Part shown: piece after piece, positions 39,890-58,944 of the stretch
Layout: the number at the start of each line of letters is the position of its first letter
Position numbering within the stretch: position 1 is the first letter of the stretch
Origin: Verrucomicrobiia bacterium
GTDB taxonomy: Bacteria > Verrucomicrobiota > Verrucomicrobiia > Limisphaerales > CAIMTB01
Length of the DNA: 64,000 nt
Reading direction: 5' to 3'
Assembly: GCA_019634625.1 (NCBI GenBank)
Contig: JAHCBA010000031.1
Coordinates: 1-64,000 of the forward strand
Program-made: the position numbers and the translations under genes
Notes under the pieces: generated by a model
Database searches by the model: none
Seen by the model: only the letters and a program-made list of their open reading frames with translations
Told to the model about the DNA's origin: nothing

Positions 39890-39903
39890 GGGTCGTTCCT
39901 GTC

Positions 39904-42264: not shown

Positions 42265-44092
42265 GCGTCCCCTCCACGCTCTCTGCCGGTCCTTCGATGC
42301 AGGCCAGGGTCCGATGGGTCCGCACATACAGCCGCCCCCCCGCCAACGCCGGTGTCGCGCTTACTTCCTCCCCCGCCTCAAACGTGGCGAGTTCCTGGAA
42401 GACCGCCGCCGCCTGAATGACAATCCCCTTCCCCGAATGCGCGAGCAGCAGGATGCGATCCCCCATCCGCACCGGGGAGGCCTGGAATTCCATTCGGTAC
42501 GCATGCTCCCACAACACCTTCCCGGTCGCCGCCTCCCGGCACATCACCAGCCCGTGCGAATCCACCGAGAACAACCAGTCCCCCGCCGCCAGCGGCGTCG
42601 GCACATCCGGCACATCCCGCTCCTCCCGCCACACAACGTGGCTCTCCGTCACGTCGCCGCTCCCGTCCGCCCGCACCGCCGCCATCATCCGTTCCGGCGA
42701 CACCACCACAATGCGGTCCCCGGAGAGGACCGGAGACGGCGCCAGTTCATTGCCAAGCAACCGCGCCCGCCACCACTCCTGGCCGCTCGAGGGCGCATAG
42801 GCGATCACCCAGGGATCCCCGGCCAGCACCAGTTGTTCCCGCCCGCCCACCTCCACCACCACCGGGGTGGTCCAGCCCGACGCCACCGGACGCCCGGCGA
42901 CCCACCGCTCCTCCCCCGTCCGCGTGTCGAGCGCCAGCAGCCGCGACAACCCGTCCGCCGCCCGCCCCTGATCCGCCTGCACAAACAGCAGGTCGCGCCA
43001 CACCACCAGCGACGCCGCATGCCCATAGGCGTTCTCCTCGAGATCCAGTCGTCGGAACCACACCAGATTCCCGTCGCGATCCAGCGCCCCCAGCTCGCCC
43101 GTCGCGAAAATCGCATAGACCCGCATCCCGTCCGTCGCCGCCGTGCTCGCCGCCGCCCCGCTCATGTCCGGGGGTTCGATCGATTCCGCAGGCCGGTCCC
43201 GGGGTGTCACCGGCCGTTGCCAGAGAAGTTCCCCGGTGTCGGCATGGTACGCGAAAACCAGCCGCTGACGCCGGTTGCCCCCGGTCAGATACACCCGGTC
43301 GCCCCACACCACCGGCGAGTTGAAACCGGCCAGCGGAACCGGGGCCTTCCAGCGCACCCCCTCGCTGCCCGCCAGATCCCAGCGCAACGGCACCCGCTCG
43401 CCCGAACCCGTCAACGCCCCGCCCGGCCCCAGAAATCGTGGCCAGTTCCCATCCTCGCTTCCCACCGCCAATCCCTCCGCCTCGCCCGAATCCGGAACGC
43501 CCGGTGAGACCGCTCCTCCAGCCAGCTCCACACCCTGCCCCTCCAGAGTCACCCGGGCCGTTTCCTCCGCCACCCCGGAATGCCACCATCCCGCCATCGC
43601 CAGAATCGATGCCACCCCGGCGCCCGCCCAGAGAACGGCCCGCTCCGACCCTCGCCGTTCCCGTTCCCGTTCGGACCCCGGCGTCACCAGGCGCAACGGC
43701 ATGGCCCGGGCGCTCCGTTTCCAACCCAGCCGCGCCGCCAGCACCCAGATCACCCCGCCCGCCAGCAACAAACCCGTCCCCATCCGGTTCCGTTCGATGC
43801 GCCGGAAGTACGCGGCCCGGCGCTGCGCATCCAGCTCCCGGATCCGCTCCTTCAACGCCTCGTTCCTGGGCTCCTCCTCGAGCCGGATCAGGGCGGCGGC
43901 GAGTTCCCCGGAACTCCACGGTTCCTCCCGTGGCTGTACCCATTGCCCAAGAAACATCGCCGCCGCGATAGTCAGCACAAAACCTCCCGCCACCCACGCG
44001 ATCCGCCCCCAGACGTCTCCAGATCCGGAAACGTCGCGGCTCTCCCCGGAAACCGCCTCGATCGGCTCGCGCAGCGGGGTCCCGGTCTTCAT
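42248..44092 (-). CDS. Membrane-anchored PQQ-like beta-propeller protein
   Basis: From ATG 44092 the protein has 614 residues. Two or three membrane helices lie near the N-terminus (AWVAGGFVLTIAAAMFLGQW, GTGLLLAGGVIWVLAARLGW, AVLWAGAGVASILAMAGW). A periplasmic domain follows with repeated propeller blades (WGDRVYLTGGNRRQRLVFAY, LLALDTRTGEERWVAG, MCREAATGKVLWEHAYRMEF). The blade motif matches PQQ-like/BamB repeats. No PQQ-ligand pattern is evident, so it may be structural or bind a partner rather than a quinone. Its start overlaps the stop of the NosR-like gene by 4 nt. It is the link between the membrane and cytoplasmic parts of the operon. Confidence 0.82.
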   Translation of the reverse strand: MKTGTPLREPIEAVSGESRDVSGSGDVWGRIAWVAGGFVLTIAAAMFLGQWVQPREEPWSSGELAAALIRLEEEPRNEALKERIRELDAQRRAAYFRRIERNRMGTGLLLAGGVIWVLAARLGWKRSARAMPLRLVTPGSERERERRGSERAVLWAGAGVASILAMAGWWHSGVAEETARVTLEGQGVELAGGAVSPGVPDSGEAEGLAVGSEDGNWPRFLGPGGALTGSGERVPLRWDLAGSEGVRWKAPVPLAGFNSPVVWGDRVYLTGGNRRQRLVFAYHADTGELLWQRPVTPRDRPAESIEPPDMSGAAASTAATDGMRVYAIFATGELGALDRDGNLVWFRRLDLEENAYGHAASLVVWRDLLFVQADQGRAADGLSRLLALDTRTGEERWVAGRPVASGWTTPVVVEVGGREQLVLAGDPWVIAYAPSSGQEWWRARLLGNELAPSPVLSGDRIVVVSPERMMAAVRADGSGDVTESHVVWREERDVPDVPTPLAAGDWLFSVDSHGLVMCREAATGKVLWEHAYRMEFQASPVRMGDRILLLAHSGKGIVIQAAAVFQELATFEAGEEVSATPALAGGRLYVRTHRTLACIEGPAESVEGTHANGR

Positions 44093-45471
44093 GGCGTTCC
44101 TCCGCATCCGCACCCGCCCGCTTTCGACCCCGGCACCACCGATCCCGGCAACACCCGCGGCGTCATCGCCACCGACACCGGTTCCGGAGCCAGTCCCAGC
44201 CGGATCCGCTCCTGCGGACAGCTCTCGAAACAGCGGGCGCATGCCACACACGCCGCCCGGTCCGGCTCGAATTCGGTGCGCCGCCGCACCATCCCCAGGC
44301 TGATCAGCCGCCATCCCACCACCAGCCCGCTCCACACCCCGAACCCGATCCCCGCCGTCCGGAAACGCTCCCGGGTTTGCGCCGCCTGCAAGTTGAGTTC
44401 GTCCGCCTCACGGTCCGCCCGCTCCAGCGCCAGCCGATCCGAATGCCGCCAGCCGTCCGTCGTCCCGCCGCCCAGCACCTCCGCCCGCAGGGCCATCAGG
44501 CGAACGGTCGGATCCAACCGGGATGCCGCCCCGCCCGCCCATCCGCCCAGCAGCGCCCCCGCCGCCATCAACAGGGGCAGTCCAACCAGCCACCCCACCA
44601 CCCGCCGCCGCGCCTGCCCCAGCACCGCCGGCCGCGCCGGGACCGGATCGGCCTCGCGAATCGCATCGTACGGACACGCCTCCGGACACAGCCGGCAGGA
44701 CGTGCAGACATCGGGCGTCACCCGGACCCGCCACTTGGACAGCGCCGACACCACACGCAGCAGCGCTCCGTACGGACACAGAAATCGGCAGTACGGGCGC
44801 CCCACAAACATCCCCACCGCCAGCAGGACGCCCCCCGTCACCACCATTCCCATCCCCCCGCTGGTCCGGAAGATCGGGATGAACGGGTCCAGCCGGCAGA
44901 TCACAAACGCCGCCCCCGTCGCTGCAAAGGCCACCCCCGCCCCCAGGAAGAGATACGGAACGAGGCCCAGCCCGCTCTCGAGCCAGCGTGGCACCCGAAC
45001 GGGCCGGACCAGCACCAGATCCTGCAGGGCCCCGTGCGGACACACCGCCGCGCAAAACGTCCGCCCGAAAAACAGGGCGAACACCAGCGGCGCCGCAAAA
45101 AACATCCCCACCGTGACCGGCAAGGCGTACCCGTGTCCCCCGAGGGCCAGCGCCACATTCTGCACCGACCCGATCGCACACACGCATCCCTCGCGGAAAA
45201 ATCCGAAGTACAACACCGAGAACACCGACACCCACACCACCCCGCGTCGCGACCGCCCCCGATGCACCAGCCAGGTGGCCCATCCCAGCGCGCCCAGCAG
45301 CACCGCCACATCCACCCAGGCCCACGCCGCCGCCCGCGCCGACGGATACTCGGTCTCCGGCATCACGTGCCCGCTCTCGAAATCCGGCGGCGGAAACCGC
45401 AGTTCCCCCGCGCCGCATTCCAACGCCGCCCATCCCCCCAGCAGCACCGCCATGAGCAGGATCGCGCGCAT
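44089..45471 (-). CDS. NosR/NapH-like polytopic 4Fe-4S membrane protein
   Basis: The 460-residue protein has a signal-like first helix and at least five further helices. Conserved cysteine motifs are GCVCAIGSVQN and FCAAVCPHGALQDLVL (CxxxCP), YCRFLCPYGALLRV (CxxxCP), CTSCRLCPEACPYDAI and CVACARCFESCPQERI, the last two being 4Fe-4S clusters. This is the C-terminal plan of NosR, NapH and CcoG, without the N-terminal FMN domain of NosR. It should carry electrons across or along the membrane between cytoplasmic donors and periplasmic partners. It is preceded 3 nt upstream by the exported Fe-S protein gene. Confidence 0.87.
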   Translation of the reverse strand: MRAILLMAVLLGGWAALECGAGELRFPPPDFESGHVMPETEYPSARAAAWAWVDVAVLLGALGWATWLVHRGRSRRGVVWVSVFSVLYFGFFREGCVCAIGSVQNVALALGGHGYALPVTVGMFFAAPLVFALFFGRTFCAAVCPHGALQDLVLVRPVRVPRWLESGLGLVPYLFLGAGVAFAATGAAFVICRLDPFIPIFRTSGGMGMVVTGGVLLAVGMFVGRPYCRFLCPYGALLRVVSALSKWRVRVTPDVCTSCRLCPEACPYDAIREADPVPARPAVLGQARRRVVGWLVGLPLLMAAGALLGGWAGGAASRLDPTVRLMALRAEVLGGGTTDGWRHSDRLALERADREADELNLQAAQTRERFRTAGIGFGVWSGLVVGWRLISLGMVRRRTEFEPDRAACVACARCFESCPQERIRLGLAPEPVSVAMTPRVLPGSVVPGSKAGGCGCGGTP

Positions 45472-45474
45472 GGC

Positions 45475-46056
45475 TCAGCCGGTGAATCGATGGTGCGGCG
45501 CACTGGCCGGCGCCCGGTAAAACGCATCGCCCGGACACACCCGCGCGATGGCGCACTCATTGCAGTTCACGCACCGGTCGTGCCGCACCTGGAGATGGAA
45601 GGAACCGTTTCCAAACAACCGGCATCCCTCCACGCACTTGGCGCACCCGATGCACAGGGGCTCGTCGATGGTGTACTCGAAGTAGGGATCCTCGATGAAC
45701 CGCCGCACGATCGCCCCGGTCGGGCAAAGCTGGTTCTCCGCCCCGGTGTTCAGGGAGTTGGGCTGCGGCTCGAAATAGCCCGTGCACAGGTCGCAGTACC
45801 CGCAGATCGGGAACCAGTTCACACACTTCACCGCCGAGGGCTCCAGCACGCAGTCCGTCGCACACCGGCTGCAGCACACGCACTTCCGCGGATCAATCTG
45901 CCAGACGGTCTCCTCCTTCGCGCTGCCATGACTGAGATATCCCGCCACCCCCGCCGCCCCGGTCAACCCCGCCACCCGCACCCCGGTGCGCAAAACCTCC
46001 CGCCGCGTGGGCGTCCATCCACCCCCGGGACCCGCCGGCAAAGTGGCCCCATTCAT
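45475..46056 (-). CDS. Exported 4Fe-4S ferredoxin-like protein with Tat-type signal
   Basis: From ATG 46056 the protein has 193 residues. The N-terminus TPTRREVLRTGVRVAGLTGA resembles a twin-arginine signal (RR-x-V-L). The mature part has three or four cluster sites: CVCCSRCATDC, CGYCDLCTGYF, LCIGCAKCVEGCRLFG and CVNCNECAIARVCP. It resembles the NrfC/DmsB-type electron-transfer subunits of periplasmic oxidoreductases, but no catalytic partner is encoded nearby. It overlaps the NHL-propeller gene by 4 nt and lies 3 nt before the membrane Fe-S gene. Confidence 0.87.
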   Translation of the reverse strand: MNGATLPAGPGGGWTPTRREVLRTGVRVAGLTGAAGVAGYLSHGSAKEETVWQIDPRKCVCCSRCATDCVLEPSAVKCVNWFPICGYCDLCTGYFEPQPNSLNTGAENQLCPTGAIVRRFIEDPYFEYTIDEPLCIGCAKCVEGCRLFGNGSFHLQVRHDRCVNCNECAIARVCPGDAFYRAPASAPHHRFTG

Positions 46057-47093
46057 GCCGCCTCCCCTGCCGCCGCCCGGCGTTGAAAGATCTGAAGGGT
46101 CCCCCCCACCCGGTCCAGCACCGCCACCCGCCCCTGACCGTCCACCGCCACATCCACCCCGTCGTCCCCGTCGCTCCGCATTCCCACCCCCAGGCCGTCC
46201 CCCTCGCCCCCCGCAAACGTATCCGGCCCCGCCACCACCGACTCCAGGTCCCCCTCCGGTCCGTACACCTTCACCCGCGCCAATCCCTTCTCCCCCGTGA
46301 CACACCGGCCGCCCGGCAGTCGCGCCAAAGCCACCGGATTGCAGCAACCGCAGAACGACGCCAGGGCCACCCCCGGCCGTCCCCACGCCCGCTCCAACCC
46401 GCCGTCCCGCCGGTACACCTCCACCCGGTGCCGACCCGGATTGTTCACCCACACCCCGCCCTCGTCGCCGGCCTCGACCACCAGACACGGACTCGGCACC
46501 ACCAGTCCGGGGATCCCCGCCTCCGGCTTTCGCTCCCCCACGCGCAACGTCACCCGCCCGTCCCGGTCGCACCGGTACACCACCCGGTTCCCTGCGTCCG
46601 CCACCCAGACATCCTGTTCGGTCACCGCCAAACCCGTAAGAAACGGCTTCCCGGCCACCGGCGCCCAACGCGCCACCCGCAGCCCACGGTCGCTCCAGAC
46701 TTCAACCCGGTCCCGCAACCCCACCCAGCGCGTTCCGTCCGCTTCCACCCGCACACACCGCACCAACTCCTCCATCGCCAGACGTTCCAACCGCCGGCCC
46801 TCCACCGAATACACGTCCACCGATCGCCCCGTCGCCACGTGAAACCGCCCATCCGGTCCCCAGGCAAACCGCCGCGCCGGCCCCTGCTCCAGCCGGAACC
46901 CCGACACCCGCTCGTAATGAATCCACGCCGGATCCACCCGGCGCCAACGGTCCACATCATACCGCAGCGGATCCGAACCCGTCCGCGCCCCGGCCTGCGC
47001 CGCCGTCGCCCGGCTCGCCGCACCCACCACCGCCGCCCCCTTCCACCCGCGCCCAAGAAAGTCCCGTCGCGATTCGCCTCGCCGCCGTTTCAT
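46053..47093 (-). CDS. NHL-repeat beta-propeller protein with Tat-type signal
   Basis: From ATG 47093 the protein has 346 residues. The signal MKRRRGESRRDFLGRG, followed by an alanine-rich stretch, is a canonical twin-arginine signal (RRDFLG). The rest is repeated NHL-type blades: ARRFAWGPDGRFHVATG, LTGLAVTEQDVWVADAG, CLVVEAGDEGGVWVNNPG and GVDVAVDGQGRVAVLDRVGG. A CGCC motif (ALASFCGCCNPVALARLPGG) in one blade could bind metal. It may be a structural or sensing subunit of the redox complex. Start and stop overlaps with both neighbours are 4 nt. Confidence 0.84.
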   Translation of the reverse strand: MKRRRGESRRDFLGRGWKGAAVVGAASRATAAQAGARTGSDPLRYDVDRWRRVDPAWIHYERVSGFRLEQGPARRFAWGPDGRFHVATGRSVDVYSVEGRRLERLAMEELVRCVRVEADGTRWVGLRDRVEVWSDRGLRVARWAPVAGKPFLTGLAVTEQDVWVADAGNRVVYRCDRDGRVTLRVGERKPEAGIPGLVVPSPCLVVEAGDEGGVWVNNPGRHRVEVYRRDGGLERAWGRPGVALASFCGCCNPVALARLPGGRCVTGEKGLARVKVYGPEGDLESVVAGPDTFAGGEGDGLGVGMRSDGDDGVDVAVDGQGRVAVLDRVGGTLQIFQRRAAAGEAA

Positions 47094-47374
47094 GGGGTTC
47101 CTCCTTCCCTTCCGTCTCCACGCCAGTGCCGGGCCTCCGGCAGCTCGCAGCCCGCCGAAACCGGGCAGAAGCCACACACCGCCCGTCGCTCACACGCGCC
47201 CGCCCCGGTGCCCCGCCAGGCCATCATGGTAACCCCCAGCAGCGCCACCCCCGCCACCGGTCGCGCCACCCGGAACAAAAAGCCCCGCCGATCTTCCGGC
47301 GGACTCCCCGCCGCACCCTCCCCAACCTCGGCCTTCGCCGCCGACATGGGCTCTCGTGGAAAAGGATCGTTCAT
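47090..47374 (-). CDS. Small Cys-rich membrane protein, first gene of the redox operon
   Basis: From ATG 47374 the protein has 94 residues. PEDRRGFLFRVARPVAGVALLGVTMMAW is split here as a Tat-like motif (RRGFLF) plus a membrane helix (VARPVAGVALLGVTMMAW). The C-terminal tail CERRAVCGFCPVSAGCELPE holds four cysteines that could bind an Fe-S cluster or zinc. No family is recognised. It overlaps the next gene by 4 nt and heads the minus-strand operon that ends at 38300. Confidence 0.65.
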   Translation of the reverse strand: MNDPFPREPMSAAKAEVGEGAAGSPPEDRRGFLFRVARPVAGVALLGVTMMAWRGTGAGACERRAVCGFCPVSAGCELPEARHWRGDGREGGTP

Positions 47375-47673: not shown

Positions 47674-48345
47674 ATGCACCCGAGGTCGCCCAACCCCGCA
47701 CTCCGCGGCTTCACCCTCATCGAACTCCTCGTGGTGATCGCCATCATCGCCATCCTGGCGTCGATGCTGCTGCCCACGCTGGCCCGCTCCAAGGAAATGG
47801 CCCGGCGCATGCACTGCACCGGCAACCTGCGCCAGGTCGGAATCGGCATCCGGCTCTACCAGGACGATCACAACGAAAAGCCCCCCCTCTTTCTCGTGTA
47901 TCCCGGACGCCGCAGCGGCTTTGCAGGCGTCCTCGCCAGCAACTACCTCGAAGGCCCCCGCTACCTCGGCACCACCAACGTCTTCATCTGCCTCTCGGAT
48001 CGCACCCGGGGCCACATCCCCTTCAATCTCGGCTGGGAATACTTCGGTGCCCCCGGCGACTTCACCACCAGCTACGCCTACCACATGGGCCCCGCGCAGC
48101 AGCTTCTCCCCGAAGGACAACGCTGGCTGGCCGATCAAATCGCCCGCTGGGGACCCCGCTTCATCGTCGCCGCCTGTCCCTGGCACCGCCATCTCTTCAG
48201 CGGATGGACCAGCCGGGCCGGATCCTTCACCCGCCGCACCAATGTGCGCGACCTCGCCCTCCGGCATGATGGCTCGGTGGACAGCTTCTTCTGGCCCGCC
48301 AACAACTGGGAGGAGGAACCCTACACCCGCACCCGGCCGCCCTGA
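47674..48345 (+). CDS. Prepilin-type N-terminal domain protein (type II pseudopilin-like)
   Basis: From ATG 47674 the protein has 223 residues. It begins with the prepilin peptidase site [20 protein letters not shown] (cleavage after Gly, methylated Phe and Glu5). [20 protein letters not shown] and a late [14 protein letters not shown] follow. This is the DUF1559/xcpG-like group greatly expanded in Planctomycetes and Verrucomicrobia, thought to be secreted or surface-displayed through a type II/IV-like system. It stands alone between two minus-strand operons, and its 3' end overlaps the end of the cyclase gene by 25 nt. Confidence 0.9.
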
Positions 48346-50159
48346 TCCCCGCTGAAACCCGGACGCTCGGGCGTCCCCGGCCCCGCCAATCCGCATCGCA
48401 GCGCGTCCACCGCGAAAATCACCGGGTAAAGCCGTTCCCAGTACCAGAGCCTGGCGAAATACAGCCCGATCGGACTCGCCTCCGGCATGGCATCCCCGGC
48501 CAGTCGCCCGACCAGCCACGCCATGCCCCGCTCAACCTCCCCCCGCCCCTCCCCCAACCCGCTCAAGGCCCGCACCGCCAGGGCCGTCTCCTCGATCGTG
48601 GAAGGTCCCCCCGGCGCCCCACCCCAACCGCCATCCCCGCCCTGCGCCGCCACCAGAAACGCACGACCCCGTTGCACCATCCCGGCCACGCCCTCCCCCT
48701 GCTCCCTCCCGGAACCCAGCACTGTCAGCACCTGCGACGTCCCGTACACCGGATTCGCATCGCCCGGCGCATGCTCATTGCCAAACCACAACGGCAACCA
48801 TGCGCCATCCTCGCGCTGGGACCGGACGAGATACCGCAGCGCCCGCCGCCGGGCCCGCGCCACCCGCGCCGCCATGGCCGGACCCAGACATCCTTCCCAA
48901 CACCCCCACGCCCGCAGCGCATGGGCCGTCAACTCCGGCGCGCTCCGGTCAAACGGCAGCGCCCCCCAGCCGCGGCAAAACGTCGGGATCCCGCCATCCC
49001 GGTTTTGCAGATCCAGCAACCACCCCACCCCACGCTCCGCCGCCTCCCGCGTCGCCCGGTCATCGGCCCCCAACCGGTGCAGCGCCACCAGCGCCCCCGC
49101 CGTGTCGTCCGCATCCGGCACACCGCCCGGCAGATCCGTCCATGCCCACCCGCCCGGTGCCGCGCCGGTGTAAGGATGCTCCCGCCGATACTGCTGCCCC
49201 AACAGCCATGCCCGCAGACGCTCGCGCCGCGCCTCCGGCAGCCAGTCGCCCAGGGCCGGCAACGCCTTGACCGACAGCGTGCTCACCCACGTCGCCAGAT
49301 TCGTGTCGATGGGCCAGCTCCCGTCGGCCCGCACCGAGGCCCGCAGAAATTCCGCCGCCCGCCTCGCCACCGGATGATCCGGCCGGTCCATCGAGGCGAG
49401 ACTCAGGGTCACGAACGCCGTCAGCGGCGTGGCCTCGAGAAATCCCCCGTTCTCCGGCTGCAATCCCTCCAGGCGCCGCAGGGTCCCGTTCACCGCCGCC
49501 TGACGCAGCCATCGCACCGGTAACCATCGGCTGGGTGCGTGATGGTGGATCGCCTGACCCAGGGCGATCAAAGCCGGCAGGGCGTAGCTGACCACCGGCA
49601 GTTGCAGCGCCCCGAACCATGACCGTGGCAGGGACGCCAGCTCGAACGGCAGCGGACGCACCCGCCTCCACCCGCCGGCCCCCAGCCGCCCCGACAACGC
49701 CAGCGTCAGCACGATCGGCACCGAGAAGGTGCGGTCCTTCCCGTAACGCCCCTCGATCGCCGGCACCAGCCCGTCCAGCCCGCCCGCCGCCCGTTCCAGC
49801 CATCCGTGCGCCGCCCGGATCACCGCCGGATACCGGGCATCCGCCCCGGCCGCCCCGAAGGCCGCCCACCCCAGCGCCGTGGTGGACAGGTTGCTGCGGC
49901 TGCGCAGGGTGTCGCCCCAGCCCCCATCGGCATGAACATGGTCCGCCAGCCAGCGAAGCCCGTTCTCCACCAGACCCGCGTGCCCGGTGCGACCGGTCCG
50001 CCGATCGATTTCGCCCAACGCAATGGTGGCCACCGCCGTGGACAAGGCGCTGCCGGAAAGTTCCCCCACCCAGTGGTCCCGCTGCCCCAGCTCACCCACC
50101 AGCACCCGGCACAGCCGGTCCAGCACCCCTTCCGCCCGCTCCCGCAGCGCGGCCGTCAC
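48321..50159 (-). CDS. Squalene-hopene cyclase-like terpene cyclase
   Basis: From a GTG at 50159 the protein has 612 residues. It has QW-type repeats throughout ([54 protein letters not shown]). The acid motif [10 protein letters not shown] (Asp349-Ala-Asp351-Asp352) corresponds to the DxDDTA that protonates the substrate in hopene cyclases. Preceding [12 protein letters not shown] matches the usual PGGWAF context. It would cyclise squalene or another long isoprenoid at the membrane. The GTG start overlaps the upstream stop by 4 nt (GTGA). Sequence outside the motifs is divergent from classical Shc, so the product may differ. Confidence 0.85.
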
Positions 50160-51043
50160 AGGCTCAAATGCCCCAGGGCCAGCAGCCCGTAAAAGGTGTA
50201 CTCCGAATCGAGATGATCGTCGGCCCAGTGCCCGTGAAATCCACCCTCCGCCGACCACAGCGTGTCCAGAAAGTCCAGGCAGCCCTCGTGCAACCGTGCC
50301 GTCAGCCGCCGATCCATCGACGCCAGCGCATGCAGCACCGTCGCCGTCGAGAGCAGATCCGGAATCGGCGCCCCGGGAACCGCCACGAACCCGCCCTGCG
50401 GATGACACCTCTGCAGCAGCCAGTCCCCGATCCGGTCAGGCACCGGCAACCCCAGGTGCCGGATCAACGTGACCGCCCCGGCCGTCGCATTGGTCGCCCC
50501 CACCGCCGCACCCGGCACATTGCTCCACGCGCCGTCCTTCGATTCCAGCGCTCGCAGTCCCTGGATCAGGCGCAGGGGCTGGGGCGGCGTCCCGCCAAGA
50601 TCCTGATACGCCCCCAACGCCACAAAGGCTCCGTACGCCGTTCCGTGCCCCAGACGCGCATCCCCCTCGTACCCGCCGTCCGGCTTGCGAAACCCTTCGA
50701 TCCGTTCCAACAGCGCCCCCGCCCGATCCTTCGGCAACCGCTCCAATCCCACCGCCGCCCAGCACCGCGCCAGCGCCCCCAGATGCACGAAGTCCAACCC
50801 CTCCCCATCCCCATGCCCTTCCAGATACCCGGTCACCCGGTCCCGCGGAATCTCCGCCTGCAACGCCTCCAATCCCGCCAGCGTGAAGATGGTGTAATAC
50901 AGATCCGCCCGCCCCGCCCGGTCCCTTGCACCCCCTTCCGCAGTCCACTGGCTCTCCAGAAACGCCCGCACCAAGTCCGTCCCCTCGCCCAGCAGTCGGG
51001 GGGCCAGCCGCGCCACCTGAAGCAGTTGAAGCCGGAGACTCAA
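50156..51043 (-). CDS. Prenyltransferase/squalene oxidase-repeat (single alpha-barrel) protein
   Basis: From a TTG at 51043, whose A overlaps the upstream TGA, the protein has 295 residues. It is an alpha/alpha barrel with repeats typical of prenyltransferase beta subunits and cyclase QW units: LYYTIFTLAGLEALQAEI, GFRKPDGGYEGDARLGHGTA, ALESKDGAWSNVPG, LQRCHPQGGFVAVPG and TLWSAEGGFHGHWADD. There is no DxDD motif. It may be a half-cyclase partner or a prenyl-binding subunit for the next gene product. An in-frame ATG lies further upstream inside the synthase gene but gives a Gly-rich tail with no similarity. Confidence 0.78.
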   Translation of the reverse strand: MSLRLQLLQVARLAPRLLGEGTDLVRAFLESQWTAEGGARDRAGRADLYYTIFTLAGLEALQAEIPRDRVTGYLEGHGDGEGLDFVHLGALARCWAAVGLERLPKDRAGALLERIEGFRKPDGGYEGDARLGHGTAYGAFVALGAYQDLGGTPPQPLRLIQGLRALESKDGAWSNVPGAAVGATNATAGAVTLIRHLGLPVPDRIGDWLLQRCHPQGGFVAVPGAPIPDLLSTATVLHALASMDRRLTARLHEGCLDFLDTLWSAEGGFHGHWADDHLDSEYTFYGLLALGHLSL

Positions 51044-52794
51044 GCGCGGACCGGTTCCGTCGCCGCCACCGCCGCCGCTGTCGTCGGCTCCGACCCCGGC
51101 GCCGCCGCCCCGCCGGCGCCCTGCTGATGCTCCTTGCACCACCCCTTGATCTCAACGTCGTTGAAGATCTTCCCGAGCGTCCGCCGCAGCAGCCCCTTCA
51201 GACTCGCATGCTCCAGCGCGGCCAGCGACCGCACCGCCTCCTCCTTGTAGCTCTCGAGCAGATGACGGCACCGCTCATCGGCCTTCAATGACCGCACCCG
51301 TTCCAACACCCCCGCCGGATCGTGGTCCGGCGACCGCCGCCAGTGCCGGTCCAGAATCTCGCGGTCCTCCCCCTGCGCCCGGTCCCGCGCCACCGCCAGC
51401 ACCAGGCTCGGACGCAACCCCGTCACATCCGTCCCTTCCAGGCCATCGAGATCCTCGAGGTCGTCCCGCACCTGGTAGGCGATGCCGAGCGAGCGGCTGT
51501 ACTTGCCCAGCACTTCCGACACCTCCTCGTGATGCCCCGCGTACAACGCCCCAAGCCGCAACGCCACTTCGAAGGCCGGCGCCGTCTTCCGACGGAAAAT
51601 GTCCACCACCTGCACCGGGGTCAGTGGCTCCGGAGACCGCGCCCACGCCAGTTCCGCCCCCTGCCCCCGGCACAACTCGCGCTGCGCCTCCGCCGCCACC
51701 CGGACCATCTCCAACCGGGCCGCCGGCGCCGCATCACACGCCGCCAGCAGACGATACCCCTCGCCGATCAGCAGATCCCCCACGTTCAACGCCTGCGCCA
51801 CCCCGTACTCCGCATGCAGCGTCGGCTGTCCGTACCGCACCAGATCGCCGTCCTCGATGTCGTCGTGGATCAGCGAGGCCTTGTGAAAGCACTCGACCGC
51901 CACCGCCACGCTGCGCAGGTCGCCCGGTAACGCCTCGCCCGGATTGTCCCGCAACGCCTGGTACGTCGCCGCCGTCAGGAACGGACGCCACCGCTTGCCC
52001 GCCCGCATCAGCCACTCGCGGGCCACCCGCTCCGTCTCGCCCTGGGCCGGCCCCATCAGAATCTCCAGCGATCCCGGCGTGAACCAGAAGTCCACCTCCT
52101 CCCGCAACGCCCCTAGGTCCATCCGCATCGTCTTGTCGTCGTCGGTCAGATGGATGTACTCCCACACCCAGTCGAGATCGACGTTCGTGTCGATGCAGTC
52201 GTCCTGCAGCAACGGCACCGCCACTCCGGGAACCGCCGCCGCCTCCATGTACGGGAACGCCCGCTCCAGCACGCTCAGGCAGCTCACCCCGACGATCGCC
52301 TCGATCTTCCCCGTCTGGATCAGGCTCATCACGATCGCCGACCCCTCCGCCACCAGCACCGCGTAACCCAGCTTCTCCGCCTCGATCGTCAGATCCTGGA
52401 TCGAACACAACCCGCACTGCTTGCACAACAGACCGAACTCATCGAACGGCGCCGGACACTTGCTCTCGACCCGCAGGCACTTCGGCAACAGCAGGAGCCG
52501 CCGCTCGAACGGCACCCGCGCCAGTTGCTCCCGCCACATCTCGTTGTTGATCAGCACCCCGATGAAATCCCGGTAGATCGGGTCGCATTGAAGCAGCGAC
52601 ACCACCCGCTCCGCATGCACCGCCAGCTCCTTCACCGGCATCGGCGGCACCGGCTGGAACTCGGCCACATAATGCCGCACCCCCTGCAGGATCCGCTGCC
52701 GCAGCATCGGCGTCGGCGGGATGTTCTTCTTCGGCGGACGCCAGGTCTGCAAGGGGACGAGACGGGGCAGCAGGGCGGGCGTGGTCTGGGACAT
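51040..52794 (-). CDS. DUF116 domain fused to polyprenyl diphosphate synthase
   Basis: The 584-residue protein has two parts. Residues 30-230 match DUF116: LLLLPKCLRVESKCPAPF, then FGLLCKQCGLCSIQDL (Cys124, 127, 130), VLVAEGSAIVM and IVGVSCLSVLERAFPYM. These cysteines could bind an Fe-S cluster. Residues 255-550 are a trans-isoprenyl diphosphate synthase with first aspartate-rich motif LIHDDIEDGD (Asp311-Asp315), second motif YQVRDDLEDLDG, and GKRWRPFLTAATYQAL near the start. It would condense IPP into a prenyl chain, probably the precursor for the cyclase encoded next. The fusion of these two families is unusual. Confidence 0.85.
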   Translation of the reverse strand: MSQTTPALLPRLVPLQTWRPPKKNIPPTPMLRQRILQGVRHYVAEFQPVPPMPVKELAVHAERVVSLLQCDPIYRDFIGVLINNEMWREQLARVPFERRLLLLPKCLRVESKCPAPFDEFGLLCKQCGLCSIQDLTIEAEKLGYAVLVAEGSAIVMSLIQTGKIEAIVGVSCLSVLERAFPYMEAAAVPGVAVPLLQDDCIDTNVDLDWVWEYIHLTDDDKTMRMDLGALREEVDFWFTPGSLEILMGPAQGETERVAREWLMRAGKRWRPFLTAATYQALRDNPGEALPGDLRSVAVAVECFHKASLIHDDIEDGDLVRYGQPTLHAEYGVAQALNVGDLLIGEGYRLLAACDAAPAARLEMVRVAAEAQRELCRGQGAELAWARSPEPLTPVQVVDIFRRKTAPAFEVALRLGALYAGHHEEVSEVLGKYSRSLGIAYQVRDDLEDLDGLEGTDVTGLRPSLVLAVARDRAQGEDREILDRHWRRSPDHDPAGVLERVRSLKADERCRHLLESYKEEAVRSLAALEHASLKGLLRRTLGKIFNDVEIKGWCKEHQQGAGGAAAPGSEPTTAAAVAATEPVRA

Positions 52795-54126: not shown

Positions 54127-54990
54127 TCAGGTCGTGCCGGTCATCCCCCCGCCGCCGCCGGCCGCCCGGGCCTTCGCCTCCTCGACCCGCCGCCGCGCCT
54201 CCTCGGCCCGCTGCGCAATCTGTTCGGGACTCGGCAGACTCGACAACACCTCCGGCGGCAGATCCGCCACCAGTTCCCCCAGCTTGGTCAGGCACTTGGT
54301 CCGTTCCGCCAATGCCTTGTCCGAATCCCGCTCCTTGCTGAACCGGCTCCGCGCCCGCTCGCTCCGGTCCCGCAACAGCGAATACACGTCCCCTCCCAGC
54401 AGCGCCGAGATGTCCACCTTCATCTTCTCCCGCTGCAAGTCCGCGTCGCTCACCGCATCGCCGTTGATCGGACCCCCCTTGTACTTCGGGAACATGATCG
54501 CCGCTTCCGGGCACACCCGCGAACACGCCGGGCAATGGGTCTTGCAGTTGTCCTGTTGCTGCGCCTGGATCCGCCCCCCGCCGTCCACGCCGTACACCCC
54601 GAACAGACAAAACGACAGACACTGCATGCAGTTCGTGCAGCGATCGTAATCAATCACCGGAAACCATGGCAGCCACGCCCCCGGCGCCGGCGCCTGATAC
54701 CGCGCCCGCACCGCCTCCGCCTCCGCCACCAATGCCACCGGCCCGTCCGCCCCCGCCGGCCAGCCCCGCCGTTCCCCTCCGTCCCCGCTCCCCTCAACCG
54801 CCTCCGCCCATCGCCCGGCCACCAACTCGGGACCCGTCCCGAACGTCACCCCCCCCGTCCGGTTCGACCGCACCGCGAACCCCCCTTCCAGCAGGGCCCG
54901 CACCGCCGCATGCCGCTCGTCCGCACCCACCGGCGAGGCACCCTCCCCTTCGTGAAGCACCACCCGCATCGTCGCATCGTGTAACGCCAT
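54127..54990 (-). CDS. 2[4Fe-4S] ferredoxin-domain protein
   Basis: The 287-residue protein has a ferredoxin core at residues 112-165: CTNCMQCLSFCLFGVYGVDG (Cys118, 121, 124, 128) and CKTHCPACSRVCPEAAIMFP (Cys149, 153, 156, 160). The N-terminal third is of unknown fold, and the C-terminal part is charged and helical. It probably supplies electrons to the radical SAM protein or moves them between the HdrA-like and lipoyl proteins. It is 35 nt after the HdrA-like gene. Confidence 0.85.
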   Translation of the reverse strand: MALHDATMRVVLHEGEGASPVGADERHAAVRALLEGGFAVRSNRTGGVTFGTGPELVAGRWAEAVEGSGDGGERRGWPAGADGPVALVAEAEAVRARYQAPAPGAWLPWFPVIDYDRCTNCMQCLSFCLFGVYGVDGGGRIQAQQQDNCKTHCPACSRVCPEAAIMFPKYKGGPINGDAVSDADLQREKMKVDISALLGGDVYSLLRDRSERARSRFSKERDSDKALAERTKCLTKLGELVADLPPEVLSSLPSPEQIAQRAEEARRRVEEAKARAAGGGGGMTGTT

Positions 54991-55025: not shown

Positions 55026-55460
55026 TTATTCCGTCGATGACTCCGTCGGTTGCCCTGTCGGTTGCCCCGTCGGTTGCCCATCCGGACCCGCCGTAGGACG
55101 ACCGGCCGGAAGATTCGGTTTCAACTCTCCAGACTCAAGCCCGGCCACCACTTCCTCCGCCGGTTGCGTCCTCATGTTCAACACCTCCGTCGCCGCCGCA
55201 TCCAGCGGCGCCCCCGCGTTCGCAAACAACCACTTCACCGCCCGCGGATAACACGCCGCAATCTTCAACGGCCCGCCCCCCGCCAGTCGCGCCAGCCCGG
55301 GATCCCGCCGCGCCGACCACTCGCAAAGGTCCGGCACCGCCTCGAATTCCGCCCCCGACTCGCACAATCTCCTCAAGACCTCGTCCTTCACCGCCGCCGG
55401 CACCACCTGGGCATACCGGCACCGGCAATACAAAATGCGTGGCGCGCCTTCGGAACTCAT
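55026..55460 (-). CDS. Short protein resembling the HdrA N-terminal domain
   Basis: The 144-residue protein has no family that I recognise with certainty. The pattern ILYCRCRYAQVV, then AVPDLCEWSARRDPGLARLA, then LKIAACYPRAVKWLFANAG parallels the N-terminus of heterodisulfide reductase HdrA (CHCG..., CS..G, VASCSPRxHExxF). Cysteines are at 12, 14, 33, 46 and 70, so an Fe-S site is possible. The last 30 residues are a Pro/Gly/Thr-rich repeat (QPTGQPTGQPT). It overlaps the lipoyl-protein gene by 4 nt. The HdrA-like reading is inference from eye alignment only. Confidence 0.6.
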   Translation of the reverse strand: MSSEGAPRILYCRCRYAQVVPAAVKDEVLRRLCESGAEFEAVPDLCEWSARRDPGLARLAGGGPLKIAACYPRAVKWLFANAGAPLDAAATEVLNMRTQPAEEVVAGLESGELKPNLPAGRPTAGPDGQPTGQPTGQPTESSTE

Positions 55461-55948
55461 GACGTAGTCGCGCTCCCCTTCGTGGACGCCGCCTCTTCCG
55501 CCTGCTGCTTCGCCAGCATCCGGTCAATCGTGTCGTCCAGCACCCCGATGTAGCCGGTCACATCCAGCACCCGCGGATCCGGTTCACCCTTCACTTGGTA
55601 CACCCAGGTATGATGAACACCACGCGTCAACGGTTCCAGCCCGTCCGCCAACTCCGGATTGCCCCCCTCGAACCGCCCCTCCACCACACAGAAAAGGTCG
55701 CTCACCGCCTTGAACCCCTCGATGTTTCCCACCACATCCCCCAACCCCACCGCCGCCCCAGCCTCCACCTCGTACCGCACTTCCACCAGCTCCCCCAGCA
55801 TTCGCTGCGCAAACTTCGTCAACCCCACCCGCCATACCCCTTCCAACCCCTCCGCCGGCGCCAGCCACGCATGCGACGCCGTGTACCGATGCCCCACCGG
55901 CAGATGGGCCACAAAGGTCGCGCGCTTGTAGAAGATCGTCTCGCTCAC
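55457..55948 (-). CDS. GcvH-like lipoyl-carrier protein
   Basis: The 163-residue protein follows the glycine cleavage H-protein fold: YTASHAWLAPAEGLEGVWRV, GLTKFAQRMLGELVEV, GDVVGNIEGFKAVSDLFCVV. Lys80 is at the lipoylation position. There is no glycine cleavage P or T gene, nor a lipoyl ligase, nearby. In sulfur-oxidising Hdr systems a similar lipoate-binding protein (LbpA) works with Hdr-like proteins, and the next gene here resembles part of HdrA. It is the first gene of the seven-gene operon ending at 48321. The divergent cysteine desulfurase gene starts 91 nt upstream. Confidence 0.88.
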   Translation of the reverse strand: MSETIFYKRATFVAHLPVGHRYTASHAWLAPAEGLEGVWRVGLTKFAQRMLGELVEVRYEVEAGAAVGLGDVVGNIEGFKAVSDLFCVVEGRFEGGNPELADGLEPLTRGVHHTWVYQVKGEPDPRVLDVTGYIGVLDDTIDRMLAKQQAEEAASTKGSATTS

Positions 55949-56039: not shown

Positions 56040-57311
56040 GTGCGGTACTTCGATCACAACGCCTCCTCGCCCCTCATCGAAGCCGCCCGCCTCGCCTGGC
56101 TCGATTCCGCCCACCGTACCCCCGGCAATCCCTCCAGCCCCCATCGCCCCGGCGCCCGCGCTGATCATGCCCTCCAACTCGCCCGCGAGACCCTCGCCAC
56201 CCGCCTCGGCGCCCCCGCCCACCGCCTCGTCTGGACCTCCGGTGCCACCGAGGCCAATAACACCGCCCTCCATCATGTCGCCCACACCTCGACCGGCGAC
56301 GTCTGGATCTCCGCCCTCGAACATCCCTGCGTCCTCGCCGCCGCCACCCGCTGGTTCCCCGGCCGTGTTCAACTCATCCCCGCCCGCCCGTCCGGCGTGA
56401 CCGACCTCGACTGGATCGCCGATCGCCTCCCACACCATCGCCCTGCCCTGATTGCGGTCATGGCCGCCAACAACGAAACCGGCGTTCTCCAGCCCTGGCC
56501 CGACCTCCTCCGCCTCTGCCTTCACCATGGCGTCCCCTTCCTCTGCGATGCCGCCCAGTGGCTCGGCAAACTCCCCGCCGCCGGTCTCGGTGACTGCGAC
56601 TTCGTCTCCGGCTGCGCCCACAAGTTCGGTGGCCCGCCCGGTACCGGCTTCCTCCTCGCCCCGCCCAACCTGAAACCTCTCCTCGTCGGCGGTCTCCAGG
56701 AGGACGGACGCCGCGCCGGTACCGAAAATGTCCCCGGCGCCGCCGGCTGCGCCGCCGCCCTCCTCGATCGCGAAGACGCCCTCGCCCGTATCCCCCACGA
56801 ACTGCGCCAGCGCGACCGCGACGCCTTCGAAGCCCGCATCGCCAACGCCATTCCCGGTCTCCAGATCGTCGGCCGCAACGCCCCGCGCCTCTGGAACACC
56901 TCCGCCCTGCTCCTGCCCCCCGTCGATTGCCGCCGGCGCTGGGTGGTCCGTCTCGACAAACTCGGCTTCGCCGTCTCCACCGGCTCCGCCTGTTCCAGCG
57001 GCCGCGAAAAGCCCTCCCATGTCCTCCAGGCCCTCGGTCTCGACGCCACCGGCGACCGCCTCGTCCGCGTCAGTGCCGGCTGGGAAACGTCCGCAGACGA
57101 CTGGTCGGCCCTGGCCGATGCCCTCCTGACCGTGGCCGCCGAGTTCGGCGTCCTTCAGGACCCGGCGCCCGCGCCAAATCCCGCCCGGAGCAACAGCGAC
57201 TCCACCTCCTCCGCCGTCGCTCCGACCTTGTCCCTCCCGGCCCGCAGATCGTCCGCCCGCACCGGGTACCACGGCCGGCGCGCGCCATCGCCAAGTCCGC
57301 CCAGATCGTAG
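56040..57311 (+). CDS. Cysteine desulfurase (NifS/IscS family)
   Basis: From a GTG at 56040 the protein has 423 residues with YFDHNASSPLIEAARLAWL, LVWTSGATEANNTALHH, ALEHPCVLAAATRWF, the PLP lysine in SGCAHKFGGPPGTGFLL, and the active cysteine in STGSACSSGREKPSHVL. It releases sulfur from cysteine for Fe-S clusters or lipoate. Its position, divergent from an operon of Fe-S, radical SAM and lipoyl proteins, suggests a dedicated sulfur supply. The last 50 or so residues (PARSNSDSTSS...) lie antisense to the FAD oxidoreductase gene and are probably an unstructured tail. Confidence 0.9.
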   Translation: MRYFDHNASSPLIEAARLAWLDSAHRTPGNPSSPHRPGARADHALQLARETLATRLGAPAHRLVWTSGATEANNTALHHVAHTSTGDVWISALEHPCVLAAATRWFPGRVQLIPARPSGVTDLDWIADRLPHHRPALIAVMAANNETGVLQPWPDLLRLCLHHGVPFLCDAAQWLGKLPAAGLGDCDFVSGCAHKFGGPPGTGFLLAPPNLKPLLVGGLQEDGRRAGTENVPGAAGCAAALLDREDALARIPHELRQRDRDAFEARIANAIPGLQIVGRNAPRLWNTSALLLPPVDCRRRWVVRLDKLGFAVSTGSACSSGREKPSHVLQALGLDATGDRLVRVSAGWETSADDWSALADALLTVAAEFGVLQDPAPAPNPARSNSDSTSSAVAPTLSLPARRSSARTGYHGRRAPSPSPPRS

Positions 57312-58708
57312 GGCCCGATCGCCGCCTCGACCTGGCGCCGCAACACCTCCGCGGGGGCCCCGGACACCGCCGCATCGAGGCAGGCGCGCGCCGGTCCCGC
57401 AAATCCCGGGTGCTCCCGCATCAGGAATCCCCCGGCCACCTCCGGCCGCCCCAGGCGCCGCACCGTTTCCCCAAAGATCACCGCCGTGAAATAAAGGCGG
57501 GCGATCTCGGTGAACGCCTCGAAATCGCCCAAGCGCCGGTACAACGCCCCAATGAAATGTTCCAGCACCCCCCACTCCGCCGCCGTGGTCTCCGCATACG
57601 ACCGCATCGCCGCCTCCCAGGCCGCCGGCCTTGCCCACGCCTGTTCCAACGCCGACGCCAGGCGTTCAATGCCCAGCAACGTGAGGGTGAACCCCGACGA
57701 CAACAGCGGATCCACAAACCCGGCCGCACTCGGCAGCAACGCCCAGCCCGGTCCCGCCGCCGGTCCGGTGCGGAAGGCCATCCGGCCCGCATGCACGAAC
57801 GGACGCACAGCCGTCGCCCCCGCGAACTGCCGCTTCACCGTCGGCAACGCCTCGATCAGCCGTCCCCAGGCCGCCTCGCCCTCCGCAAACCCAAACCGCC
57901 CCGCCACCGCGTCCGTCGCGGAAACGCCCGCACTGACCACGCCGTTCACGAATCGCAACACCCAGATCCACCCGCCCTCGAAGACGTGATGCACCGCCGC
58001 ATCGTCCACCGGGTACGGGGCGGCCCCCATGCCCTCGTGCAAAGGCAGATCCCCCAGCCGCAGAACATCCCGGAAATGCGAATACAACGCCTGCGTCCCC
58101 GGCAGGTGCGGCACCGCCAGCTCCGGCAGCCCCAACGAGCGCGAGACCGGCCCACGACGATTCCCCGCATCCACCACCCAAATCGCCCGCACCTCGCCAT
58201 TCCACCCGTTCTCCCGCACCCGCAACCGGCACGAACCCGCCTCGAAATCCACCCCCAACACCTCGCAACCCTCCCGGTACTCCACCCCCAACCGCATCGC
58301 CTCCCGCACCAGGAAATGGTCGAACTCAGGACGGTACCAGTGCGTGTCCGCCACCTCGTCATTCGGACTCGCCGCCACCAGCAACTGATCGGCACGCCCT
58401 GCCGCCCCGGCAAACGGCTGGCCCATCCGGTGGCCATAAAACGAAAACCCCCGCTTCAATCCGCAGCTCACCTCGGGATGCGCCCGCCGCCAGCTCCCCC
58501 AATGCGCGAAGGGCGTCAGCGCCGCCAGATCGTACCGCGCCGTCAATTCGCTCCAGATCAGGTCCGCCAGCGGAGTCGAGGATTCGCCGATCGCAAACCG
58601 CGGATGACTCCCCTTCTCCAGCAGCACCACCGTCCGCCCCAGGCGCCGCGCCACCATCGCCAGCAGCGCCCCCCCGAACCCCGACCCGACAATCGCCACA
58701 TCCAACAT
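57155..58708 (-). CDS. FAD-dependent oxidoreductase (halogenase/geranylgeranyl-reductase-like)
   Basis: From ATG 58708 the protein has 517 residues with MLDVAIVGSGFGGALLAMVA (Rossmann GxGxxG) and HPRFAIGESSTPLADLIW, the GES(T/S)TP loop of tryptophan-halogenase-like and geranylgeranyl-reductase-like flavoproteins. LVREAMRLGVEYREGCEVLG and AAGFVDPLLSSGFTLTLLGIE follow. It may reduce or oxidise the isoprenoid made by the neighbouring operon. Its 3' 157 nt overlap the cysteine desulfurase gene on the opposite strand. The substrate is unassigned. Confidence 0.84.
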   Translation of the reverse strand: MLDVAIVGSGFGGALLAMVARRLGRTVVLLEKGSHPRFAIGESSTPLADLIWSELTARYDLAALTPFAHWGSWRRAHPEVSCGLKRGFSFYGHRMGQPFAGAAGRADQLLVAASPNDEVADTHWYRPEFDHFLVREAMRLGVEYREGCEVLGVDFEAGSCRLRVRENGWNGEVRAIWVVDAGNRRGPVSRSLGLPELAVPHLPGTQALYSHFRDVLRLGDLPLHEGMGAAPYPVDDAAVHHVFEGGWIWVLRFVNGVVSAGVSATDAVAGRFGFAEGEAAWGRLIEALPTVKRQFAGATAVRPFVHAGRMAFRTGPAAGPGWALLPSAAGFVDPLLSSGFTLTLLGIERLASALEQAWARPAAWEAAMRSYAETTAAEWGVLEHFIGALYRRLGDFEAFTEIARLYFTAVIFGETVRRLGRPEVAGGFLMREHPGFAGPARACLDAAVSGAPAEVLRRQVEAAIGPYDLGGLGDGARRPWYPVRADDLRAGRDKVGATAEEVESLLLRAGFGAGAGS

Positions 58709-58944
58709 CGCCCCTTCATCGCACCCCCCAGGCAATGGGGTCAAATCACTACATTTACATGGTGTCGGCAATGCGATCGATCGAGGGATGCGCGAAGCGT
58801 CGTTGCTCCTGTCGATACCGATTCCGATACCGCCCCCGATTCCGGTGCACCTTCCGACAACTCGCCGATACGCCCGAGTATAAAGGGCCTCGCAACTTCC
58901 CCTTCGATCGGGTTCCGGAAACCCGGAGGGTTTCCAGAGATTAG

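Follow-up and report, generated by a model that had tools for sequence, protein, structure and literature searches.

A probable HdrA-type iron-sulfur domain and a GcvH-like lipoyl carrier at the head of an isoprenoid-type gene cluster in a verrucomicrobial genome

In a Verrucomicrobiia genome, a gene encoding a GcvH-like lipoyl-carrier protein (GcvHL) overlaps by 4 nt a gene encoding a small four-cysteine protein (HdrAN), and the pair raises the question of which pathway these two proteins serve. Both genes lie in the window, by which we mean the whole 64,000-nucleotide stretch of DNA that was analysed (GenBank assembly GCA_019634625.1, contig JAHCBA010000031.1, positions 1 to 64,000). A sequence-only reading of the window had noted the overlap and had suggested a minimal or repurposed version of sHdr-LbpA sulfur oxidation. 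The overlap itself is confirmed, with both genes found at the expected positions on the minus strand and the plus-strand letters TCAT reading ATGA on the coding strand. It is not a general feature of the locus, however, as a gene for a CobW-type GTPase intervenes in 34 of the 39 loci that have both genes in a scan of GTDB species genomes. The features discussed here are collected in Table 1.

Table 1. Features of the locus, with positions in the window and the basis of each assignment.
Feature	Position	Strand	Basis
Membrane-anchored PQQ-like beta-propeller protein	42248-44335	minus	Similar propeller immediately follows cycB in four distant loci
NapH/NosR-like membrane 4Fe-4S protein	44089-45471	minus	Homologues near the cluster in 7/20 distant loci, 6 of them strong
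4Fe-4S protein downstream of cycB	45493-46050	minus	Homologues cluster-linked in 7/20 distant loci
cycB, squalene-hopene-cyclase-like protein, start uncertain	48321-50408	minus	SQHop_cyclase_C, E 7.9e-26
cycA, prenyltransferase/alpha-alpha-toroid protein	50156-51142	minus	Pfam Prenyltrans, E 3.7e-9; conserved position
DUF116 fused to E-type polyprenyl diphosphate synthase	51040-52794	minus	Pfam DUF116, E 1.5e-36; polyprenyl_synt, E 2.2e-44
Radical SAM protein, CxxxCxxC and C-terminal C269, C288, C328	52818-54113	minus	Pfam Radical_SAM, E 2.6e-16
Fer, 2x[4Fe-4S] ferredoxin-type protein	54127-54990	minus	Fer4 Pfam matches, cysteine conservation, fusions
HdrAN, four-cysteine protein like the HdrA N-terminal [4Fe-4S] domain, low-complexity tail	55026-55460	minus	Invariant cysteines, AF2 model, VIA-align, cysteine spacing
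ATGA overlap of 4 nt, GcvHL stop and HdrAN start	55457-55460	minus	Sequence
GcvHL, GcvH-like lipoyl-carrier protein	55457-55948	minus	Pfam GCV_H, alignment to PDB GcvH, Lys80 conservation
NifS-type cysteine desulfurase, divergent neighbour of GcvHL	56040-57311	plus	TIGR03402, E 5.4e-61, below the curated cut-off

HdrAN is 144 aa long, with an ATG start. Its cysteines C12, C14, C46 and C70 were invariant in a first set of 32/32 sequences and then in 81/81. Among 121 distinct sequences, including that of the window, C46 and C70 are cysteine throughout, and C12 and C14 are cysteine in 120; the remaining sequence, L025, has gaps at these two positions. Judged from these alignments, the four-cysteine motif exceeds what chance would produce. 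The CxC-C-CxP pattern by itself is too common to prove anything; it was matched by 146 of 8,641 six-frame ORFs. The DLC typical of the family was present in 141 of these matches; of the five without it, four look spurious and one (L163) belongs to the family. The region is covered by no Pfam or NCBIfam model, and a Pfam scan of 32 members returned nothing significant for the domain, the matches to Se_S_carrier in 6/32 members (best E 0.031) being weak and non-significant. HdrAN is present in 37/58 genomes searched at the level of the own genome, the genus and the order, and was matched in 54/387 genomes drawn from the phylum. The GTDB species scan confirmed 469 relatives, and 80 loci from among them were retained for the locus counts given below; their labels are mostly verrucomicrobial where a group is named, apart from a handful of odd ones on MAGs (Klebsiella, Proteobacteria).

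The cysteine pattern of HdrAN had been likened to the N-terminus of HdrA, with model and profile comparisons proposed as a check, and this parallel is upheld in part. The cysteines are spaced 1-31-23 in HdrAN and 1-32-24 in three PDB HdrA chains and the HdrA of the same genome. An N-M-R motif follows the last cysteine by 24 residues in HdrAN, where the compared HdrAs have N-I-R at 26, and AAC-x-PR at the last cysteine is common to the window protein and archaeal HdrA chains. An AlphaFold2 model of HdrAN based on 81 sequences (mean pLDDT 84.4, pTM 0.74) retrieved HdrA chains at VIA-align ranks 1, 3, 5, 6, 8, 10 and 14, with Z from 6.9 to 5.7. Between these seven HdrA chains of the top 14 stand other folds, among them a designed Rossmann protein at Z 6.6 and receiver domains at 6.3 or less. 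Foldseek gave no match to the model at E <= 0.001, with HdrA 5odc appearing only at rank 34 (E 0.30, query TM-score 0.43), and a first hhalign comparison, made with the N-domains of ten verrucomicrobial HdrA proteins, yielded a weak match (probability 1%). A larger comparison of 121 HdrAN with 14 HdrA sequences aligned residues 4-102 onto 2-104 (P 0.002, probability 13.7%); its score of 23.22 exceeded those of 150/150 column-shuffled decoys, narrowly (maximum 22.88), and that of the reversed profile (20.59). A PDB sequence search with the HdrAN profile returned no HdrA; its matches were to designed proteins and a viral polyprotein, none with an E value better than 0.2.

Homology between HdrAN and the HdrA N-terminal domain is likely but not proven, because Rossmann-like folds of designed and receiver proteins come close to HdrA in score and the profile-profile comparison gives a marginal result. 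The same overlap of VIA Z scores with unrelated folds, together with the low profile-profile probability and the negative PDB search, would suit a convergent likeness, in which HdrAN is an unrelated Rossmann-like protein of the same pathway whose cysteines bind zinc, or a cluster for some other purpose. We consider convergence unlikely, given the near-identical cysteine spacing, the AAC-x-PR and N-[MI]-R motifs at matching places, the crowding of HdrA N-domains at the top of the VIA-align list and a linkage to [4Fe-4S] ferredoxin as in HdrA. In any case HdrAN is not an HdrA, since it has only 144 aa and lacks the FAD-binding thioredoxin-reductase-like domain, its distant relatives being fused to a Fer4-type domain only; it is at most a detached HdrA-type domain. 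The N-terminal cluster of HdrA takes one ligand, Cys197, from a partner subunit, according to the accessible part of the source (PMC9012536), and the four cysteines of HdrAN are for that reason candidate ligands only.

The ferredoxin linkage is seen in gene fusions. In six same-order relatives with the locus (L029 and L042 to L046) a single open frame encodes HdrAN and the Fer domain, and the two share a frame in all of 20 phylum-level loci except L156, L168 and L169, judging by where the frames begin and end. In these fusions HdrAN comes to lie beside ferredoxin clusters, an arrangement shared with HdrA except that the FAD domain is missing. The eight ligand cysteines of Fer are conserved in 103 aligned sequences. 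In the window, GcvHL and HdrAN head a same-strand run that continues with Fer, the radical SAM protein, the DUF116-synthase, cycA and cycB. The order that recurs elsewhere is GcvHL, CobW-type GTPase, HdrAN, Fer, radical SAM, DUF116-synthase, cycA and cycB. Among the 80 GTDB-scan loci, many of which are short, matches were found to Fer in 72, the radical SAM protein in 46, the GTPase in 41, GcvHL in 39, the DUF116-synthase in 37, NifS in 31, cycA in 30 and cycB in 20. The GTPase belongs to Pfam cobW and has a CFCC motif; in the genome studied here its gene sits on another contig (C3:49350-50447). The NifS-type gene is often kept upstream of GcvHL.

The frequency of these last two genes (NifS-type 31/80, GTPase 41/80) speaks for a sulfur- or Fe-S-handling role, in which HdrAN would be a scaffold or persulfide carrier that, with NifS and the GTPase, supplies the radical SAM enzyme and the lipoyl carrier. 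The four invariant cysteines and the Se_S_carrier matches fit such a role as well, although those matches are below significance. However, among 20 distant loci, most of them carrying the core, NifS occurs in only 2 and the GTPase in 4, and fusion to a 2x[4Fe-4S] ferredoxin suits electron transfer better; we regard this role as unlikely.

Two further observations concern the surroundings of the cluster. Beside the HdrAN cluster of one other locus (L158 2751-8022) lie genes for a methyltransferase, three 2-hydroxyglutaryl-CoA-dehydratase-D-type proteins and a BadF-type ATPase, and the assignment of these neighbours suggests further low-potential chemistry. In the window, a gene for an FAD-dependent halogenase/geranylgeranyl-reductase-like protein (57155-58771, minus) overlaps the 3' end of the opposite-strand NifS gene; no such gene was found near the HdrAN cluster in 87 other loci.

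The genes that follow Fer encode isoprenoid-type and radical SAM enzymes whose catalytic motifs are intact. The CxxxCxxC motif and the three C-terminal cysteines of the radical SAM protein are conserved in 67 aligned sequences, and its closest solved structures, distant only, are SkfB and cytosylglucuronate decarboxylase. Similarly, seven cysteines of the DUF116 domain and both Asp-rich motifs of the synthase are conserved in 59 aligned sequences; the structure model of the DUF116 domain is poor (mean pLDDT 60). The product of cycB is matched by a PDB squalene-hopene cyclase (E 3e-18), and its acid motif DXDD, present as DADD at 432, occurs in 29/29 aligned sequences. The longest frames of the DUF116-synthase, cycA and cycB (50156-52794, minus) overlap by about 100 and 250 nt. 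The true starts are probably downstream, because homologues align from inside these frames, those of cycA from about residue 34. Replacement of menaquinone by the cluster product was considered and is not supported, futalosine genes being found in the own genome and in seven same-genus or same-order genomes tested; with respect to the futalosine route only, such genes are missing in 17/30 HdrAN-positive genomes tested.

The association of HdrAN with these genes extends to whole genomes. Within the order, 27 of the 37 HdrAN-positive genomes were compared with all 21 HdrAN-negative genomes, ten positives having been left out before the result was seen. DUF116 was found in 27/27 positive and 1/21 negative genomes (Fisher p 1e-12), GcvHL in 22/27 and 0/21 (p 3e-9), and the CobW-type GTPase, at E < 1e-70, in 22/27 and 1/21 (p 6e-8), although these p values overstate independence because genomes of one order share ancestry. 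A single HdrAN-negative genome (G020) accounts for both the DUF116 and the GTPase exceptions, and its DUF116 lies at a contig edge. GcvHL is distributed differently from the rest. In 46 genomes in which the form of HdrAN was read, it accompanies 23/24 standalone HdrAN proteins versus 3/22 fused HdrAN-Fer proteins, and 25/32 class- and phylum-level HdrAN genomes have no GcvHL. Its absence from most genomes with the fused form places GcvHL outside the core, as an accessory that goes with standalone HdrAN.

GcvHL itself (163 aa, GTG start) is a member of the GCV_H family (Pfam E 2.9e-13, 50.2 bits against a curated cut-off of 22.2) and aligns with PDB GcvH (E 1.6e-13), and it scores 48 against the NCBIfam gcvH equivalog cut-off of 115.85. 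Its predicted lipoyl site is Lys80, in the motif E77-G-F-K80-A, which aligns with the lipoyl lysine of Escherichia coli GcvH and of the canonical GcvH of the same genome. This position is lysine in 57/59 aligned GcvHL sequences, the remaining two being gapped at that column. Profile scores separate GcvHL (at least 173.6 bits) from canonical GcvH (at most 82.9 bits), so that in sequence terms it clearly forms a class apart, and the genome encodes both. A search of the genome for lipoate ligases linked to Hdr systems had been suggested. Two LplA/LipM-like proteins are encoded (L177 9381-10100 and L147 261-971), beside two biotin-ligase-like proteins, and in the stretches read neither of the LplA-like pair is linked to Hdr genes or to the cluster; either of them might lipoylate GcvHL.

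Taken together, these observations are best explained, in our view, if HdrAN and Fer form a detached electron module of HdrA type that serves an isoprenoid pathway, to which the lipoyl carrier is an accessory; we give this explanation an even chance of being correct. HdrAN would be a [4Fe-4S] protein consisting of one domain like that at the HdrA N-terminus, and with Fer it would make up an electron-transfer module of three clusters; in most of the distant relatives fetched, the two are joined in one polypeptide. The DUF116-linked prenyl diphosphate synthase would supply an isoprenoid chain, the DXDD-bearing squalene-cyclase-like enzyme would cyclise it, and the radical SAM enzyme would modify it. 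Low-potential electrons for the radical SAM protein, and perhaps also for the cysteine-rich DUF116 domain, would come from HdrAN-Fer. What the sequences themselves show is the conservation, the order of the genes, their fusions and co-occurrence, the intact motifs and a predicted fold; cluster binding, electron transfer and its direction, lipoylation and the product are inferred. The lipoyl disulfide predicted on Lys80 of GcvHL would most likely exchange electrons or thiols with the HdrAN cluster.

The genes downstream of cycB offer a possible destination for the product. Homologues of the 4Fe-4S protein and of the NapH/NosR-like protein occur near the cluster in some distant loci (Table 1), and in none of 20 same-order loci and none of 47 GTDB-scan loci longer than 15 kb. 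Since the linkage is confined to some distant loci, it is a hint of a role in membrane redox chemistry that only some lineages would have, and the NapH/NosR-like protein is a possible user of the cluster product. The minus-strand run 38300-47177, to which these genes belong, encodes an NHL-like propeller protein together with the 4Fe-4S, NapH/NosR-like and PQQ-like propeller proteins, and it also holds a NuoE-NuoF fusion with a ferredoxin tail and a 2Fe-2S/GltD-like protein. These neighbours have a place in another arrangement, in which HdrAN would be a ferredoxin-dependent reductase of the lipoyl carrier. The dithiol arm of the carrier would then feed the radical SAM, DUF116 and cyclase route to a new membrane isoprenoid redox cofactor, which in some lineages, including that of the own genome, would serve the adjacent NapH-like, 4Fe-4S and PQQ-propeller proteins. 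We hold this more elaborate scheme to be unlikely.

The sulfur oxidation suggested at the outset is very improbable. A lipoyl-type protein and an HdrA-like domain are indeed encoded together, and a cysteine at position 127 in 41/59 aligned GcvHL sequences, though absent in the window protein, recalls the C-terminal cysteine of LbpA. In the accessible text of PMC6067878, LbpA proteins, some archaeal ones excepted, are described as having two strictly conserved cysteines, one near each terminus. The strictly conserved lipoyl lysine of the LbpA type is shared by GcvHL, but the N-terminal cysteine is missing from the family, 36/59 sequences having no cysteine in the part aligned to window residues 1-40. 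The core is accompanied by isoprenoid and radical SAM genes (DUF116-prenyl synthase and cyclase-like enzymes among them) and not by sulfur genes, and most of the more distant HdrAN genomes, as noted, do without GcvHL. The sequence-only reading was right that no HdrB, HdrC or full HdrA gene accompanies the pair, and no hdrA-hdrB-hdrC-like or sHdr genes were found in the cluster, either in the window or in the loci compared. The HdrA and HdrB that were read lie on another contig (C18; L176 6163-13070), where HdrC, HdrB and HdrA, named from sequence as are all genes there, are followed by MvhD-, hydrogenase-small- and hydrogenase-large-subunit-like genes; further CCG-domain matches on C4, C55 and C73 fall outside this Hdr reading. 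The C18 locus probably encodes a hydrogenase-heterodisulfide-reductase complex. Given the neighbours, the missing LbpA cysteine and the hydrogenase linkage of the HdrCBA genes, the link to sHdr-LbpA is not supported. It is very improbable that GcvHL is a spare glycine-cleavage or lipoyl-relay protein in an incidental neighbourhood, as its GCV_H membership and conserved lipoyl lysine might suggest, given that it stands well apart from the canonical GcvH that the genome also has and that within the order it occurs in HdrAN-positive genomes only.

All components of the cluster, as far as their assignments go, belong to or resemble known families, and the isoprenoid-type cluster as a whole looks widely conserved in Verrucomicrobiota and undescribed. 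In a literature search outside which most subscription papers lay, no report was found that pairs DUF116 with radical SAM proteins or joins GcvH with radical SAM proteins and a polyprenyl synthetase, and nothing on DUF116, COG1852 or verrucomicrobial isoprenoids described the cluster. Terpene clusters of Verrucomicrobiota have been reported, one of them with a squalene-hopene cyclase, and the accessible part of that report does not mention the HdrAN-type gene set (PMC8692599). The interest of the pair lies in this pathway more than in sulfur oxidation, and in the combination of a probable detached HdrA-type Fe-S domain with a lipoyl-carrier paralogue. If the preferred explanation is true, the HdrA N-terminal Fe-S domain is a mobile module that also operates outside heterodisulfide reductases, and lipoyl carriers may have a function other than those in 2-oxoacid dehydrogenases, glycine cleavage and sulfur oxidation. 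Further, Verrucomicrobiota at large would make an unknown isoprenoid, with the uncharacterised DUF116 family among the enzymes involved.

Compared with known systems, the cluster shares parts with several. With the HdrA N-terminal domain (PDB 5odc, 7bkb and 8rvy) HdrAN has in common the CxC...C...CxP pattern and the N-[MI]-R that follows it, a Rossmann-like fold (predicted for HdrAN) and an association with ferredoxin domains; it differs in being a separate 144-aa protein or a ferredoxin-type fusion, and the sequence similarity is marginal. GcvHL has the fold family and lipoyl-lysine motif of the GcvH of glycine cleavage, whereas the lysine is preceded by G-F in GcvHL and by S-V in GcvH, and GcvHL has an N-terminal extension, a profile-score class of its own and a tie to HdrAN rather than to the canonical gcvH of the genome. 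The sHdr-LbpA systems, as described in the accessible parts of PMC6067878 and PMC10332631, likewise encode a GcvH-like lipoyl-type protein with an Hdr-like protein, but here the partners are isoprenoid and radical SAM enzymes and the N-terminal LbpA cysteine is missing. Lastly, a DXDD cyclase-like protein and a synthase with both Asp-rich motifs are also found in squalene-hopene cyclase and prenyl diphosphate synthase pathways; unlike in those pathways, the synthase of this cluster is fused to DUF116 and is co-inherited with HdrAN, Fer and the radical SAM protein.
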